From contig NZ_SZNH01000002.1 of the NCBI RefSeq assembly GCF_005869855.1, positions 106,643 through 161,295 of the forward strand: 54,653 nt of DNA, in the 5' to 3' direction. The first letter of the stretch is position 1. Every line of letters starts with the position of its first letter. Both the position numbers and the translations under genes were made by a program. Source of the DNA: Nostoc sp. PA-18-2419. GTDB lineage: Bacteria; Cyanobacteriota; Cyanobacteriia; Cyanobacteriales; Nostocaceae. The notes under the pieces are model-generated. The model had not been told where the DNA came from and searched no databases. It saw nothing but the letters and a program-made list of their open reading frames with translations. Below are positions 24,407-31,677 of the stretch, one piece after another.

Positions 24407-26218
24407 CTATCCTCCTAAAGTCCGCGTATAAATTACCTGACCTTGCGAATCATAAAGGAAAACAGACAAATTGGCATTGTCACTAATTACAGCTAGGGCT
24501 TCTCGTAGGATTTGCAAGTGAGTGCTAAAGTCAACAGCAGTATCCAAATTATGTAAATTAGGATTAGCCAAGGTATTTTGTCTTAATTGGTCGTACTCAG
24601 GAGTTAACCGCACAATAATTCCTGCATTATCCATACTAAAAGTACAAATCCGAATTCCATTAACACAGGTTTTGTCTAAGTCAGTACGGGTTTGTTGCAA
24701 ACTACTAACAACTTGTAGTTTTTCTTGTACTTGTTTGAGGGCTGTTGAGTAGGGTTCGATTAAGGACTGAGCCGGAGTGGAGTACAAGCTATCTTGGGAA
24801 ACTTTTTTAACAGTTTCCAAAGCCTGCTCCCAGTATGTCGCCGCTGCTTGCCATTGGTTTTGTTGCTGATAGACTTTGGCTTGGTTGGCGATACTAACAG
24901 CTTGTTGGTAAGTTCTAGCAGCTAATTGTTCTTTAATAGTGCGATCGCGTGCTGCTACTAACTTAGGTTTATAATCTAACAACAACTTTTGGGCTTGTTG
25001 ATATGTGGGGCTAGTCTGGGGAATCACCCTCAAGGCATTAATGACTATCTGCCAGTTAGACTCCACTTTTTGCCAATCCTTCAAGGATTTAGCACTAGCT
25101 TGTCGGTTCTCGGCTGTATTTGCTACAGCTTTTGCTGCTGCTAGTTTTTTCAGCCATTTTTCTTCAATTAGTATCTGCTGATTCACAGCGTGCAAACTGA
25201 TACGATAGCTAAATAATTTTGCTTGCACTAGGGCATACAGTTCGCTATTAGGAGTTATAGCCTCCAGTGGTGCGATCGCCTGTCGCCATAAATGTTGTCT
25301 AGCTTGTATTTCTTCTAAACTACCTGCGGGAGTTTTAATTTTTTCTGCCGCCAAAGATGCGGTCTGCAAAGCCTTAACTACTTGGTCGATTTTTTCTGAC
25401 CGTCCAGTCAAATTTGCTTTGAGTTCTTCTGATACCTGGTAACGCGGCGACCAACTAGGAATTACGTTTAAGGCTGTGCTAGCCGCTGCAAGTCGCTGCT
25501 GCACTGCTACTAATTCTTTTTCTGACTTGGCGCGGCGCATCAATTCGGGGGATTGTGTTTTTAATTGCTCAGCAACTTCTATTTCTTTGCACTCAGACAT
25601 CATACAAGGGCGAGTCAGCAAATAGCCGCCAACGCCTAAAACGATAAATCCCACCAAGGCTACACCTACAAACAGAGGTTTGAGGCGTCCTGGTTTAGAA
25701 GCCGCTAAATTCGGTGCATCTGCAAATGGGTCAAATACTTCTTCTGGTTCAGTTTCATCAAATGATGGTAAATAGGTCAGAGCTGATGAGGCGGATGAAG
25801 AGTAGTCAGACAAAGCAGACAAGGAAGATATTGCTCCCTCATCTTTTTGCACTTCCTCATCTTCCCCTACTCCCCTTACTCCCCAAATCCCCATCTCCTT
25901 GTCTTCCCATCTTGTTCTTTGCTTGAGAGCTAGAAAACATTTGCTATAAGGAAGTTGTTCGCCAAAAACTCTGAGGAAACATTGCACTCGTTGCTCTCTG
26001 TAGGATGCTAAGGACTGAAGTACCTCCTCAATGACTGCAAAGATCACTTGAGCATCAACTATTACACTTGATGGGTGTTGAGTTAAAATCATTAGCTCGT
26101 CTTTATTGACGGCACATTTAACTTGAAACACTCCAGATGATGAGACTTCTACCAGCAATTGTTCCTGCAAAGTTTTAGCTAAAAGCTGTAAATCTTCCTG
26201 CTGGACTGCTACTTTCAT
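24407..26218 (-). CDS. Membrane-anchored coiled-coil protein, hypothetical
   Basis: About 603 residues. The N-terminal 110 residues form a small domain (VAVQQEDLQLLAKTLQEQLLVEVSS...). Then follows a low-complexity insert coded by C-rich intergenic-type repeats (25835-25912; residues about 100-130). One membrane span is KPLFVGVALVGFIVLGVGGYLL, followed by long helical repeats rich in Gln/Ala/Lys and a C-terminal domain ending SVFLYDSQGQVIYTRTLGG. ATG 26218 is chosen; a GTG at 26305 would add 29 residues. Function unknown; the helical part may scaffold or sense at the membrane. Confidence 0.7.
   Translation of the reverse strand: MKVAVQQEDLQLLAKTLQEQLLVEVSSSGVFQVKCAVNKDELMILTQHPSSVIVDAQVIFAVIEEVLQSLASYREQRVQCFLRVFGEQLPYSKCFLALKQRTRWEDKEMGIWGVRGVGEDEEVQKDEGAISSLSALSDYSSSASSALTYLPSFDETEPEEVFDPFADAPNLAASKPGRLKPLFVGVALVGFIVLGVGGYLLTRPCMMSECKEIEVAEQLKTQSPELMRRAKSEKELVAVQQRLAAASTALNVIPSWSPRYQVSEELKANLTGRSEKIDQVVKALQTASLAAEKIKTPAGSLEEIQARQHLWRQAIAPLEAITPNSELYALVQAKLFSYRISLHAVNQQILIEEKWLKKLAAAKAVANTAENRQASAKSLKDWQKVESNWQIVINALRVIPQTSPTYQQAQKLLLDYKPKLVAARDRTIKEQLAARTYQQAVSIANQAKVYQQQNQWQAAATYWEQALETVKKVSQDSLYSTPAQSLIEPYSTALKQVQEKLQVVSSLQQTRTDLDKTCVNGIRICTFSMDNAGIIVRLTPEYDQLRQNTLANPNLHNLDTAVDFSTHLQILREALAVISDNANLSVFLYDSQGQVIYTRTLGG
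25835..25912. repeat. C-rich mini-repeat inside the coiled-coil gene
   Basis: TTCCCCTACTCCCCTTACTC-type units identical in style to intergenic mini-repeats, read in-frame as an acidic Gly/Glu-rich insert. Confidence 0.65.
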
Positions 26219-26305
26219 AGAACTTTCGTACTGAATTTCTATATTGTTTTGATTATCTTTAAGGAGATGAAATGAACTTTTTGAATTTGTTGAATAAAGA
26301 TGCAC

Positions 26306-26991: not shown

Positions 26992-28215
26992 ATGGATTTA
27001 TTAGAGTATCAAGTGAAAGAATGGTTTGGCAAGATAGGCATTCCTGTATTGCCTTCGCAACGAATTGACCATCCTACAGATTTAAAACGTTTAAAAATTC
27101 GCTTTCCAATTGTATTAAAATCTCAAGTACATGGAGCAGAACGGGCAAAAGCAGGTGGGGTCAGGTTTGCCGAAACAACTATCGATGCGATCGCCGCTGC
27201 CCAAAATATCTTTAGTTTACCGATATGGGGAGAGTTGCCGGAAGTTGTCCTAGCAGAATCCCAATACGACGCCAACCAAGAATTTTATCTAGCAGTGGTT
27301 TTAGACACCGCTGTTTGCCGACCAGTGCTTTTAGGTTCCAAAGAAGCAAACATCGATTGGGAATCTGCTGGAGAAAAAATGCACTATGTGGTTGTCGAAC
27401 AAGAATTTTCTCCATTTTATGCGCGACGACTTGCTTTGAAAATGGGCTTGCAGGGAACACTGATGCAGTCGGTAAGCAGCGTTGTCCAGAAAATGTACCA
27501 GTTGTTTGTACAAAAAGACCTGGATTTAGTCGAAATTAATCCTTTGGCAGTCAATCCTAATGGTGAAGTTATGGCTCTCAATGGTAAAGTCAGGGTGAAT
27601 GAACGCTCAATCAAGCGTCATCCAGATGTTGCCCAAATGGCAGCAAAAATTATCAGCCGTCATCCAAGTAGTGAAATCAACGGTATTTTGGGCGACTGGG
27701 AAGGTGTGCAAATGCACGGAAAAATCGGGATTTTAGGTAATGGTACTGGTTCAGTAATGGCAACTTTGGATTTAGTCGCTAATGCTGGCGGAAAACCAGG
27801 TGTTTGTTTGAATCTACGCCATGCTTTCCTCACGGATACCACACCAACTACCTTTTGCGATCGCCTACAAACAGGTTTAAAAATTTTAGCTGCTGATAAA
27901 AGCATCGAAGTCATACTAATTAACTTCTTAGGTAGCATTCCTCAAGCCGAGGAAGTAACCCAAGTTATAGCCAAATTTATAGAACAAGACAATAACGAAC
28001 TCAAATTACAAGTTGTACGCTCTAATGGTAGTAAACACCAAGATGTGAATTTTCCATCCTTAGTTATCCGCCTTGCTGGTTCAGAGTTAAATTCAACTAA
28101 AAATTATTTAGCAAGACTTAAAACTAGCAGCAATACTCTTGCTGTGGTAGAAAATTTAGATGAAGCCGTGAAAGTTGCAGTTCGGATTGCTAAACCAAAT
28201 GCTAATAAGAAGTAG
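26992..28215 (+). CDS. SucC-like CoA-ligase beta subunit (divergent)
   Basis: 407 residues, same architecture as the beta subunit of succinyl-CoA synthetase: ATP-grasp N-terminus (MDLLEYQVKEWFGKIGIPVL; VLKSQVHGAERAKAGGV) and C-terminal ligase domain (ILGNGTGSVMATLDLVANAGG). EINPLAV is kept, but family landmarks differ: QVHAGGRGKAGGV is here QVHGAERAKAGGV, DVGGGA is NLRHAF, and VNIFGGI is INFLGSI. The partner alpha-like gene follows after 301 bases. It is probably a paralogue specialised for another acyl-CoA or a regulatory role; succinyl-CoA synthetase activity should not be assumed. ATG 26992 is preferred to GTG 26971. Confidence 0.8.
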   Translation: MDLLEYQVKEWFGKIGIPVLPSQRIDHPTDLKRLKIRFPIVLKSQVHGAERAKAGGVRFAETTIDAIAAAQNIFSLPIWGELPEVVLAESQYDANQEFYLAVVLDTAVCRPVLLGSKEANIDWESAGEKMHYVVVEQEFSPFYARRLALKMGLQGTLMQSVSSVVQKMYQLFVQKDLDLVEINPLAVNPNGEVMALNGKVRVNERSIKRHPDVAQMAAKIISRHPSSEINGILGDWEGVQMHGKIGILGNGTGSVMATLDLVANAGGKPGVCLNLRHAFLTDTTPTTFCDRLQTGLKILAADKSIEVILINFLGSIPQAEEVTQVIAKFIEQDNNELKLQVVRSNGSKHQDVNFPSLVIRLAGSELNSTKNYLARLKTSSNTLAVVENLDEAVKVAVRIAKPNANKK

Positions 28216-28516
28216 CCGCCAATAACTATTAATTTGTAATCTGTTTTGCTCAGCAACGCTAATGTAAATGAAAAGCGCCAAGCGCGATATGATTAAAAAA
28301 TAAAATTTGTCAAATGCCATCTAAATTTCCTACTTTTAAATCTGTAGGCTGATTTAGTTAAATTAGTATTACTTTTTAGTTGCGGAGATAAATTTCCAAA
28401 TGGAATACGAAAACTAATAAATTGCAGTAACTCCTAAAATTAATACAATACTGTATACATATCTTTTATGCCCAGTGGCTCGACTGACTGGTTTGCCAAG
28501 CTTACGGTAATTTATT
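28216..28516. other. Spacer between SucC-like and SucD-like genes
   Basis: 301 AT-rich bases with no recognised feature. This is unusually long for the two subunits of one enzyme, so a separate promoter for the alpha gene is possible. Confidence 0.35.
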
Positions 28517-29398
28517 ATGAACATAACGCCAGAGAGTAAAGTCTTAATTCAAGGCTTTTGTGAATTTATATCAGGCACTCACGTTACTCAAATGAAAGCT
28601 TACGGTACGAATTTGGTAGCTGGTGTTAATCCTGGATGCGGCGGACAGGAAATGCACGAACTGCCAGTATTTGATTTAGTAGAAGAGGTAGTACAAGAAT
28701 TTGGCGCAATTGACACAACAATTATCTGTGTAGATCCTTACGATGTTTTGGATGCGGCATTAGAAGCGATCGCATCTCAAATTCGCCAAATTATTATTAT
28801 CACCGCTGGCGTGCCACCTTTGGATATGGTGCAATTACTCCGCAAAGCCGAGGCCTGTGAAACTTTGGTAGTAGGGCCAAATAGTCCGGGGATTATTGTA
28901 CCGGGAAAAATTCTTTTGGGAACTCAACCTAGCGAGTTTTATACACCAGGGCCAGTGGGGATCGTCAGTCGTAGCAGCACCCTCACCTACGAAGTCGCCT
29001 ATGAATTAACAAAAGCTGGTTTGGGGCAGTCGATTAGTGTCAGTATTGGTAGTGATGCGATCGTCGGTTCCTCGTTTTTGCAATGGCTGCAAATTCTCGA
29101 TGAAGATGAAACTACACAAGCGATCGTTTTAGTCGGTCAACCCGGCGGCGGTAGTGAAGAAGCAGCGGCGCGGTACATTGCTGAGGCTATTGATAAACCA
29201 GTAATTGGCTACATTGCAGGCAGACAAGCACCACCAGGAAAAAGTTGGCGTCAAACTGGGACTTTAGCAACATTTATCGGACGCGATCCTAATTTTGGTA
29301 CAGCCCAAAGTAAATTAGCTGCTTTGAAAGAAGTACAAGTTCCTGTAGCTGAACGCCCTTCTCAAATTCCAGAATTGGTAAGAAAAAGGATAAATTAA
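28517..29398 (+). CDS. SucD-like CoA-ligase alpha subunit lacking the phosphohistidine
   Basis: 293 residues aligning end to end with the alpha subunit of succinyl-CoA synthetase: CoA-binding Rossmann part (MKAYGTNLVAGVNPGCGG), ITAGVPPLDM, GPNSPGIIVPG, VGIVSRSSTLTYEVAYELT and a C-terminal ligase half. In E. coli SucD the phosphorylated His246 sits in GKRMGHAGA; the same place here reads GKSWRQTGT, so His is Gln. The partner Glu208 in GEIGG is also Gln (GQPGG), and Cys123 of GPNCPG is Ser. The fold is kept but the phosphohistidine relay is not. See findings. Confidence 0.85.
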   Translation: MNITPESKVLIQGFCEFISGTHVTQMKAYGTNLVAGVNPGCGGQEMHELPVFDLVEEVVQEFGAIDTTIICVDPYDVLDAALEAIASQIRQIIIITAGVPPLDMVQLLRKAEACETLVVGPNSPGIIVPGKILLGTQPSEFYTPGPVGIVSRSSTLTYEVAYELTKAGLGQSISVSIGSDAIVGSSFLQWLQILDEDETTQAIVLVGQPGGGSEEAAARYIAEAIDKPVIGYIAGRQAPPGKSWRQTGTLATFIGRDPNFGTAQSKLAALKEVQVPVAERPSQIPELVRKRIN

Positions 29399-29469: not shown

Positions 29470-31677
29470 CTACAATTTTGACAAAATTTCTGGCAACAAC
29501 TGACTTGGAACTTTCGATAAAGCAAAATTTTGCCCTTGTATTCCTAATTCATTGTGAAAAGCACGGATAGTTTTCACCATATAGCCGAAGGTTGTTTGAT
29601 AAACTTCCGTTTGTTTATTCAATCCATTGAGAGCTTGCAAATGATGTTCTAATGCTACTTCTAGATGTTGAGAACGTATTGCTTTATCAGTATTAAAAGA
29701 TTTATCTATTACTAGCTGATAGTGTGCCAGTCCCAAGTTATTATGAGAGGCAAACAAGTCAAAACTTAAAGAGTTGCTGCTCAGTGAATGAGCCAAAGCT
29801 AGAGATTCTTCGTAAGCATTGATGCATAATTGCAGATATTTTTGCCGTGCTTCTTTAGGGGTTTGAGATAGATTTGCTAAATTCCAATAGGCAGTACCCA
29901 AATTATTTTGTGTGGCAGCACAAGCACTAGGAACGTTAGCTGGAGTACGATATTTCAGAGCTTCGTTATAGACATCAATAGCTAGTTGTAAATTTTCAGC
30001 AGATTGTTCGTATTGTGCTAAATTCCAATAGGCAGTACCAACGTTGTTTTGAATCATGCCATACTTGAGCGGTTCCTCTTGGGGATTATAGTGTATGAGT
30101 GCTTGGTTGTAAGCGGCGATCGCTTTGTTTAAATGCACAATCGGTTGATTATATTGTCCTAAATGCCAGTAAGCAGTTCCCAAATTATTTTGGCAAGCAG
30201 CATACTTTAATGAATCCATATCTGCTGTACGGTAATTAAGTGCTTCGCTGTAAGCTAAAACTGCTTGTTGCCAATTCTCAGATGGCTGAGAAAAACGAGC
30301 TAAATCACCATAAGCTGTCCCTAAGTTGTTTTGGACGCGGGCGTAAGTTTCTGGATGTGTCTGGGATGAGATTGTATTTAACGCCAACTGATAAAATTCT
30401 ATTGCTTGTTCTATATAAGTTTGTCCTTCTTCAGAATTAGGTGGTGTGCGGTATAACATCCAATAAAGTGTACCCAAGTCATTCAAAATATCTGGGAGTT
30501 GCGGTGAAATTTCGTTATAGCTAATTGCCTCTTGATAAGCAATGATTGCTACCATCAAATTTTCTAAGGTTGATTCTCCTTGCTCAATCCGAAGGCGGTA
30601 TAAGTTACCCAAGCGATGATAAGCTTCTGCCAGTATTTCTCCAGGAAGTTGTTGTAAATGTAATTCTTCAATTTCTAGCAAAATCAGCTGCGGTTGCCAG
30701 TCATCTTCTATATCTTGAGTAATCTTTGTGTTAATTGTTGCTAATACTAACTCCGTTAACTCACTGCTAATATGAGATAAAGAAGATAGTAATTGCTGCT
30801 CGTTTCCACTGCCAGATCTAATAGTAGATTCCTGTTGTGGCATAGTCTTCGATTCGATGATTGATGCAGTATCTGACTGTATTTTGTGTACATTATTTTC
30901 TGGTGTCTGTGCTGAAAAATTGGAATTCTTCTCAAACTTTAATTCACTAGCTGTTGTTTTGAATTCTGCTTGGGTAACAGATTCATCTGAAATCGACTGA
31001 TCAAGATTCCCTACATCCAAACTTCTAGAATTAGAAAAACGTTCTGGATACCTTGAATTCTGAGTTGCTGGTGTCGGTTCTCCAGCAAACACAAATACCC
31101 CAGTACGGCAATGCCAAAATTGTGGTGCTGATTGTTGGATAGCAGACAACCAAGGACGGGGTATCCACAACAGCAAGTTAGATTCTAGAAATCGACTGGA
31201 TCCTTGTGTGGAGAAATATTGCTCGCTTAAACGGAGATAATGCAAGAATAAACGCTGTGTTGCCACTGGTTGCTTAGTTAGCTGCTCCACACCTACAATT
31301 TGAAATGCTGGTATTGGAGAAACTTTTCCTGGAGTATCTTTTGATGCCCCAATAATTGGCGGTGGATAATTGGCCACCCATTGATTGATTTGAACTATGG
31401 GATTGGGATCGTTTAAATTCAACCGCAGCGTCACTAATCGTGGATAAGCTGGAGTGCTATTTTCTTGAGCATTTGATGGTTGATATAGCACTTGTCCCAC
31501 AGGATAAGCCAATGTAGAATGCAAACGAGCTGCTACTTGATTTCTTAAATGTAAATCATCACATACCGCTAAAAAAAGTTGTCGCCGCAAACCAAGACTT
31601 AAGGCAAGTTTTAAGCGCTGGTATACTTGTCGATTCCAAGTAAAATTATCGTTGTGTACAGTATCATTCACACTCAT
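29470..31677 (-). CDS. TPR-repeat protein with N-terminal degenerate ATPase-like domain
   Basis: 735 residues. Residues 1-210 contain a segment LRRQLFLAVCDDLHLRNQVAARL and LLLWIPRPWLSAIQQSAPQFWHCRTGVFVF, a cyanobacterial N-terminal module without a visible P-loop. After a low-complexity linker, residues about 330-700 carry at least seven tetratricopeptide units with recurring NNLGTAYWNLAQ and AIxxYNEAL patterns. TPR proteins bridge protein complexes; the partner is unknown. Confidence 0.85.
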   Translation of the reverse strand: MSVNDTVHNDNFTWNRQVYQRLKLALSLGLRRQLFLAVCDDLHLRNQVAARLHSTLAYPVGQVLYQPSNAQENSTPAYPRLVTLRLNLNDPNPIVQINQWVANYPPPIIGASKDTPGKVSPIPAFQIVGVEQLTKQPVATQRLFLHYLRLSEQYFSTQGSSRFLESNLLLWIPRPWLSAIQQSAPQFWHCRTGVFVFAGEPTPATQNSRYPERFSNSRSLDVGNLDQSISDESVTQAEFKTTASELKFEKNSNFSAQTPENNVHKIQSDTASIIESKTMPQQESTIRSGSGNEQQLLSSLSHISSELTELVLATINTKITQDIEDDWQPQLILLEIEELHLQQLPGEILAEAYHRLGNLYRLRIEQGESTLENLMVAIIAYQEAISYNEISPQLPDILNDLGTLYWMLYRTPPNSEEGQTYIEQAIEFYQLALNTISSQTHPETYARVQNNLGTAYGDLARFSQPSENWQQAVLAYSEALNYRTADMDSLKYAACQNNLGTAYWHLGQYNQPIVHLNKAIAAYNQALIHYNPQEEPLKYGMIQNNVGTAYWNLAQYEQSAENLQLAIDVYNEALKYRTPANVPSACAATQNNLGTAYWNLANLSQTPKEARQKYLQLCINAYEESLALAHSLSSNSLSFDLFASHNNLGLAHYQLVIDKSFNTDKAIRSQHLEVALEHHLQALNGLNKQTEVYQTTFGYMVKTIRAFHNELGIQGQNFALSKVPSQLLPEILSKL

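Follow-up and report, generated by a model that had tools for sequence, protein, structure and literature searches.

A SucC/SucD-like gene pair of Nostocaceae without the phosphohistidine is probably mislabelled as succinyl-CoA synthetase

Introduction

For the succinyl-CoA synthetase (SCS) of E. coli, made up of SucD (alpha) and SucC (beta), a passage of PMC10342173 names His246, Glu208 and Glu197 as catalytic. For cyanobacteria, passages of three further papers bear on the enzyme: according to one review, the pair in Synechocystis is probably an SCS (PMC7133116), a proteome study treats the cyanobacterial pair as the SCS of the tricarboxylic acid cycle (PMC9175036), and another review lists SCS among the enzymes absent from cyanobacteria (PMC11546870). 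Here we analyse a SucC/SucD-like gene pair in a stretch of 54,653 nucleotides from Nostoc sp. PA-18-2419 (RefSeq assembly GCF_005869855.1, contig NZ_SZNH01000002.1, positions 106,643 to 161,295 of the forward strand), called the window below. We suggest that the usual SCS label is probably wrong for this pair and that it more likely has another job; judged by residues and profile scores, it would be an SCS-derived family that falls outside SCS proper. A census of its residues supports the absence of SCS activity, yet shows that the proteins are conserved.

A search of titles and abstract openings, mostly outside subscription journals, found no report of a missing phosphohistidine in cyanobacteria, and judging by titles we found no paper on a pseudoenzyme SCS. 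In a term search of the accessible text of three expression papers on heterocysts and Anabaena (PMC4363197, PMC4046671, PMC10406281), the pair is not named.

Results and Discussion

The two genes lie on the same strand, in the order beta-alpha, and both are open frames:

26992..28215, + strand: beta, a SucC-like subunit of 407 aa (ATP-grasp domain, about residues 1-222; CoA-ligase-like domain, about residues 240-400)
28517..29398, + strand: alpha, a SucD-like subunit of 293 aa (Rossmann-like CoA_binding domain and CoA-ligase domain)

For the start of beta we chose the ATG at which its alignment to SucC chains sets in; the mechanical start is a GTG 21 nt upstream. Residue numbers refer to E. 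coli K-12 SucC and SucD, the reference of our alignments. Aligned with SucD, the alpha chain has Gln in place of the phosphohistidine His246 and of Glu208, Ala in place of Glu97, Cys in place of Lys42, Glu in place of Gly18 of the CoA loop, and Ser in place of Cys123. Four of these features lie at:

28553..28582, + strand: replaced CoA loop of alpha (GFCEFISGTH, against GFTGSQGTFH in E. coli)
28805..28807, + strand: alpha Ala97, in place of Glu97
29138..29140, + strand: alpha Gln208, in place of Glu208
29252..29254, + strand: alpha Gln246, in place of the phosphohistidine His246

We take Lys42 and the glycine loop of alpha to take part in CoA binding by SCS. The importance of Glu97 is suggested by the title of a PDB entry, according to which a human E105Q alpha mutant holds succinyl-phosphate; the residues correspond once a shift of 8 positions between the alignment ranges is allowed for. 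Ser123 alone is not telling, since a C123S version of the E. coli enzyme has been made and crystallised (title of PDB 2NU7). In beta, the replacements fall in both halves of the chain:

27124..27159, + strand: ATP-grasp glycine loop of beta, QVHGAERAKAGG (residues 45-56), against QVHAGGRGKAGG in E. coli
27529..27591, + strand: Mg/nucleotide region VEINPL...ALNGKV of beta (residues 180-200), with Glu181 (E197) and Asn183 (N199) kept and Asn197 in place of Asp213
27811..27828, + strand: NLRHAF (beta residues 274-279), where the CoA-ligase domain has its DVGGGA loop

Asn199 and Asp213 are presumably Mg ligands. Of the two residues that stabilise the phosphohistidine, alpha Glu208 has become Gln and beta Glu197 is kept. 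A first-pass annotation of the window had pointed to Gln at 246 and 208 and Ser at 123 of alpha, and to AERAKAGG for GGRGKAGG and NLRHAF for DVGGGA in beta, and the alignments with E. coli K-12 bear out every one of these; the losses of alpha Glu97, Lys42 and Gly18 and of beta Asp213 had escaped it. A displaced histidine was considered and rejected: the alpha chain of the window has His at residues 22 and 47 and none after residue 47, which leaves the swinging loop without a displaced His to use. On these residues, the pair would be unable to run the SCS cycle as it is understood, because alpha is without the phosphate carrier, Glu208, Glu97 and the CoA loop.

The census that extends this comparison holds 116 alpha rows (108 distinct sequences, the window protein being counted more than once) and 111 beta rows from Nostocaceae, 41 rows from other cyanobacteria, and 7 canonical members from the rest of the phylum. 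The 41 genomes outside Nostocaceae were picked by hand, one or a few per family, from 66 genomes of the same order or class with an alpha match; one genome whose match is a frame of more than 900 aa (G296) was excluded, and at least five same-order genomes are listed without an alpha match, among them one that has beta (G237). In the Nostocaceae rows, alpha position 208 is Gln in 116/116 (Glu in 7/7 canonical rows); position 246 is Gln in 112, Lys in 2, Glu in 1 and Thr in 1 (His in 7/7 canonical rows); position 97 is Ala in 90, Pro in 15 and Gly in 11 (Glu in 7/7 canonical rows); and the Gly18 position is Glu in 116/116. The constancy at 208 and 246 exceeds what chance would give. A His one residue early, at the Gly245 position, occurs in 7 of the 116 rows and is absent from the window protein; the motif of the His loop is thus not identical across Nostocaceae. 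Beta position 213 is Asn in all 111 Nostocaceae rows and Asp in 41/41 other cyanobacterial and 7/7 canonical rows, the second Gly of the DVGGGA loop is His in 111/111, and the Gly53 position of the glycine loop is Glu in 99 of the 111 and Gly in 39 of the 41 other cyanobacterial rows. By comparison, beta K46, E99, E107 and E197 are kept in 41/41 other cyanobacterial rows and in 111/111 Nostocaceae rows bar one gap at K46, and Arg54 is kept in the Nostocaceae rows too. Asn199, kept in the window, has given way to His in 10 of the 111 beta rows and to Ser in one. The rows with His come from loci L021, L022, L026, L028, L030-L032, L096, L102 and L104, two of which are named Dolichospermum; judging from the alignment, the change would be a further step in the alteration of their ATP-grasp site.

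Both chains are nonetheless recognisable relatives of SCS by domain content and predicted structure. Beta matches ATP-grasp_2 (PF08442) with 107.2 bits, passing the gathering cut-off of 29.5; alpha matches CoA_binding and Ligase_CoA (PF00549), the latter with 43.5 bits and thus over the cut-off of 24.5, with beta just under it at 21.4. The NCBIfam models for SCS cover most of the length of both chains, yet their curated cut-offs are not reached, alpha scoring 282.7 bits against 353.2 for TIGR01019 and 285.3 against 336 for PRK05678, and beta 202 against 375.55 for TIGR01016 and 214.9 against 370 for PRK00696; two relatives that still have the His (L116 and L125) likewise score below the SCS cut-offs. 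AlphaFold2 models of the single chains have a mean predicted local distance difference test (pLDDT) of 86 for alpha, with the loop at 240-255 below 50, and of 82 for beta. In Foldseek searches, alpha matches an SCS alpha chain with E 4e-30 and superimposes on the E. coli and Thermus enzymes with a template-modelling (TM) score of 0.9, and the top matches of beta are SCS beta chains (E 6e-35); the whole-chain TM score of beta is only 0.56-0.6 and its predicted TM score 0.56, so the placement of its domains is unsure. The models thus predict that both chains adopt the SCS fold.

The host genome (7.6 Mb, 99.99% complete) has one alpha and one beta in searches with alpha, beta, PF00549 and PF08442. 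The first-pass annotation had proposed a look for an authentic, His-bearing pair elsewhere in the genome, and none was found there; further matches are weak, with E 9e-4 or worse and under the family cut-off where one exists. Models for OGDH E1, the MetA-type HTS family and the CoA-transferase family have no match in the host genome either, with control searches matching in 7, 8 and 6, respectively, of 14 known genomes. These results bear on the view that the pair is still a working SCS, or another acyl-CoA ligase that takes an unusual route, for instance because Gln246 is tolerated or a neighbouring residue is phosphorylated. Such a view could draw on the intact overall fold, on the probable SCS function given for the Synechocystis pair in the passage of the review PMC7133116, and on the crystallised C123S enzyme; it would have to accommodate the joint loss of His246, Glu208, Glu97, Lys42 and the CoA loop, scores under the NCBIfam SCS cut-offs, and a host genome in which OGDH E1, MetA-type and CoA-transferase models are all unmatched. 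We regard it as very improbable.

Across Nostocaceae the pair is nearly universal. E. coli SucD is matched in 214 of 217 genomes, strongly (E <= 1e-55) in 210 and weakly in 4, with no internal stops in the match rows listed; nothing above 228 bits, as might be expected of an authentic SucD elsewhere, was seen in the 217 genomes. Among the rows listed, which are the stronger ones, identity to E. coli SucD is 42-46%; within the sampled set of canonical SucD proteins, the median identity is 55-62%, depending on the domain. The second matches in many Nostocaceae genomes are, as judged from lists of frames, probably a fused ADP-forming acyl-CoA synthetase of more than 900 aa. Three Nostocaceae genomes that are 93-100% complete (G420, G430, G553) have no beta and no proper alpha, their only match being a weak one in a frame of more than 900 aa, and the beta query used matched all 43 Nostocaceae genomes of another set; the absence of both genes is as expected of one functional unit. 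Among less complete genomes, G472 (72%) lacks beta and retains a fragment of alpha, and neither gene is present in three further ones (54-89%). The pair thus appears to be lost as a unit. As regards copy number, one genome (G393, with an estimated contamination of 6%) has two equal-scoring copies of alpha (C1:584428-585285 and 2521965-2522822). A duplicate of the 5' portion of beta, 231 bp long, lies at L205:2697-2927 (G051:C1:1011196-1011426); it shares 97% identity with the beta gene of the same genome and is followed soon by a stop. Of this and a similar match at G233:C1:721759-721989, the G051 copy was read.

In up to 20 picked Nostocaceae rows, counting pairs with dS of 0.2-1.5, the median dN/dS was 0.085 for alpha, 0.074 for the ATP-grasp domain of beta and 0.205 for its CoA-ligase half. 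The replacement residues are thus under strong purifying selection and not drifting. The statement of the first-pass annotation that the frames are intact and the pair is not decaying agrees with the alpha value and with the strong matches in 210/217 genomes. Ordinary decay of a dispensable gene pair might be read from the three near-complete genomes that have lost both genes and from the faster evolution of the CoA-ligase half of beta; median dN/dS values of 0.07-0.09 over alpha and the ATP-grasp domain, fixed replacement residues and retention free of internal stops in the rows listed already refute it for Nostocaceae, and we give it next to no credence overall.

The conservation is unevenly spread over beta. 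Median identities within groups, given for the ATP-grasp and the CoA-ligase half, are 0.80 and 0.56 in Nostocaceae, 0.70 and 0.36 in His-bearing and 0.63 and 0.26 in His-less rows of other cyanobacteria, against 0.44 and 0.46 in canonical SCS, and 40 of the 41 invariant beta columns fall within residues 9-198 (52 rows). In Cyanobacteriia, constraint has thus shifted to the ATP-grasp half of beta, with the CoA-ligase half drifting. The ligase domain of Nostocaceae alpha has a median identity of 0.80, equal to that of the ATP-grasp domain, and S153, T155, E159 and G248 are invariant in its 116/116 rows.

The trees set this pair apart from canonical SCS. In a tree of 64 alpha rows, a branch with a support of 100 separates 56 Cyanobacteriia rows from 7 canonical rows of the phylum and E. 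coli, and the same split has a support of 99 in a tree of the beta ATP-grasp domain; Cyanobacteriia, the class of the window, are taken here as the photosynthetic members. His246 is kept in 15 of the 41 alpha rows outside Nostocaceae, all of which (15/15) keep Glu208, and Glu208 is also lost in 23 of the 26 rows without the His; Asp stands at position 246 in 14 of the 41. Lys42 is kept in 0/15 of the His-bearing rows, and Glu replaces Gly18 in 11 of these 15. The family nearest to Nostocaceae (f3, two rows, grouped with them at a support of 99.6) has an alpha 69 and 75% identical to that of the window, with His246, Glu208 and beta Asp213 all present; since this sister family still has them, the loss of the phosphohistidine in Nostocaceae is derived. 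A second large cyanobacterial clade is also His-less, with Asp or Asn common at 246 and beta Asp213 kept. The His state changes at least 4 times on the full tree with trait columns left in, and 3 times on a smaller set with trait columns removed; a single origin of the loss was rejected, modestly, by an approximately unbiased test (p-AU 0.021) on a quick tree with the group named after the tree had been seen. In one further family (f8) the alpha gene is unlinked from beta and extremely diverged, with 28-37% identity where it matches, against 49-57% for the well-kept beta, whose match spans its first 215-231 residues (alpha at loci L155, L157, L159 and L161; beta at L156, L158, L160 and L162).

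Because the His-bearing rows are already without Lys42 and mostly without Gly18, the CoA site was probably altered before the His was lost. From the alignments we infer an order of loss in which the CoA determinants were given up first, followed in at least two lineages by His246 together with Glu208, and in Nostocaceae by Asp213 as well. The new CoA-ligase chemistry that the first-pass annotation had proposed is unlikely for the same reason, and the CoA-ligase half of beta is the least constrained part of the pair.

Of the readings weighed, we favour one in which the pair is an offshoot of SCS specific to cyanobacteria that makes no succinyl-CoA and that, in Nostocaceae, forms a nucleotide-binding, non-catalytic alpha/beta complex; to this reading, based on sequence comparison, we assign a rough probability of 0.5. 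Nostocaceae beta would still bind adenine nucleotide and would be unable to pass phosphate on, since it faces no His acceptor and has a weakened Mg site. Nucleotide bound without phosphate transfer would make the complex nucleotide-responsive, in a regulatory or scaffolding capacity; in its simplest form, it may be a sensor of the energy state that acts on another protein and is read out via the alpha-beta interface. Among the three options that the first-pass annotation had left standing, the regulatory pseudoenzyme is thus probably the best match for the Nostocaceae pair. Direct formation of an acyl-phosphate may hold mainly for other cyanobacteria, with their intact ATP-grasp site, and a different acid finds some backing in the Asp at 246 of other cyanobacterial rows and none in the Gln of Nostocaceae.

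Several points weigh against a non-catalytic complex. The conserved ligase domain of alpha and its invariant S153, T155, E159 and G248 might reflect catalysis of a new reaction at that site; the great constancy of Gln, rather than Ala, at 208 and 246 suggests that these positions may serve a purpose of their own; the ATP-grasp domain retains the majority of its residues, and inactivity does not follow from the loss of a single Mg ligand; the loss of both genes from three near-complete genomes shows that the function is dispensable in some lineages; and the sensor role is an inference.

It is also conceivable that protein-protein contacts matter most, the pair or beta alone supporting another enzyme structurally or in its assembly, with nucleotide binding being incidental. 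Retention throughout the lineage without SCS catalytic residues would suit such a role, as would the well kept beta of family f8 beside its diverged alpha; conservation tracks the nucleotide-binding half of beta and no partner turned up, and in our judgement this reading is improbable.

Outside Nostocaceae the six ATP-grasp residues K46, E99, E107, E197, N199 and D213 are all intact in 41/41 beta rows, even though 26 of the 41 alpha partners are His-less. There, an ATP-dependent step onto another acceptor may occur, and from the sequences we consider direct phosphorylation of another acceptor at least as likely as nucleotide binding without transfer. Applied to the family at large, this would amount to a new catalytic route that bypasses the phosphoenzyme, with a carboxylate phosphorylated directly by the ATP-grasp domain; the acyl-phosphate would be used as such or, within the remodelled pocket of alpha, passed to some acceptor that is not CoA, in the manner of a carbamoyl or acyl transfer like that of FdrA. 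The strong constraint on the ATP-grasp domain speaks for this, and FdrA, a SucD relative also without Glu208 and His246, is a precedent, since a passage of PMC8550087 reports no SCS activity for it and gives it as a likely oxamate carbamoyltransferase. A gene for a short-chain dehydrogenase/reductase (SDR) lies directly upstream of beta, at 28-189 nt and on the same strand, in four distant families (L177, L179, L188, L195). Against this stand Asn for Asp213 in 111/111 and His or Ser for Asn199 in 11/111 Nostocaceae rows, as well as the loss of the DVGGGA loop; the SDR gene, moreover, adjoins beta in none of the Nostocaceae loci examined, and among 20 non-Nostocaceae loci of 18 kb, 19 of them with beta, it is found upstream in 4/19 and missing in 15/19, including loci L178 and L180 of the same families (f3 and f4) as SDR loci. 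We consider new catalysis of this kind unlikely, if worth keeping in mind.

Returning to the non-catalytic complex that we favour for Nostocaceae, a wider version would hold that, across photosynthetic cyanobacteria, the pair annotated as SCS is a separate family that dropped CoA binding early, lost the phosphohistidine in several lineages, and saw its ATP-grasp half take on a new function in photosynthetic cells, be it ATP-dependent or ATP-sensing. We put this forward tentatively, as a generalisation that could well go either way and that we would not quite bet on.

The gene neighbourhood offers leads only; neither the SDR nor the protein described next gives a function. The remaining features of the locus are:

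28216..28516, + strand: gap of 301 nt between the beta stop and the alpha start
24407..26305, - strand: 632-aa protein, upstream of and divergent to beta
29470..31677, - strand: 735-aa protein, downstream of and convergent to alpha

The gap between the genes has a median of 198.5 nt in 108 Nostocaceae loci and of 57 nt in 33 other cyanobacterial loci, both values being approximate since the starts in the relatives were set by BLAST. The 632-aa protein has one hydrophobic segment by eye and matches no NCBIfam model; a divergent upstream protein of 600-680 aa is present in 66 of the 74 Nostocaceae loci that extend far enough, and some distant families have it as well (L184, L188, L189). The 735-aa protein weakly matches an FxSxx-type TPR model.

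Comparison with known systems

FdrA of E. coli is like the window alpha in being related to SucD and in lacking Glu208 and His246 in the alignment. It is unlike it in its length of 555 aa and in its partner gene, ylbE, next door, and the window alpha scores 32.6 bits against the FdrA model (NF004760), with a cut-off of 433, over residues 78-238 only. ATP-citrate lyase and citryl-CoA synthetase have the superfamily fold in common with the pair, the fold alignment giving no more than 30% identity; no further Ligase_CoA match that might stand for either enzyme was found in the host genome.

The ADP-forming SucCD (TIGR01016, TIGR01019, PRK00696, PRK05678) shares with the window pair the fold of both subunits, the beta-alpha gene order, beta K46, R54, E99, E107 and E197, and alpha S153, T155 and E159. 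The window pair differs in being without the phosphohistidine, Glu208, Glu97, Lys42 and the CoA glycine loop, in having Asn at beta 213, and in scoring 202-285 bits where the models have cut-offs of 336-376.

Proteins annotated as cyanobacterial SucC and SucD, such as Synechocystis sll1023 and sll1557, are of a kind whose relatives share the clade of 56 rows (support 100) with the window pair. In genome G076, an alpha gene with Asp at 246 directly follows, on the same strand, a gene for a type 2 isopentenyl diphosphate (IPP) isomerase; we take K01823 to stand for IPP isomerase. Synechocystis sll1556 (K01823) and sll1557 (sucD) are listed in a passage of PMC8385029. Since the neighbour matches, sll1557 is probably His-less like the G076 alpha, the kinship of G076 with Synechocystis being read from this neighbour alone. 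The alpha of G076 falls into the second His-less clade, with Asp or Asn common at 246, against Gln in Nostocaceae, and with beta Asp213 kept. If the pair is indeed a separate family throughout photosynthetic cyanobacteria, the standard SucCD step in maps of cyanobacterial metabolism would be an annotation error. The close relatives with and without the His offer a ready contrast for experiments on how an acyl-CoA synthetase becomes something else.

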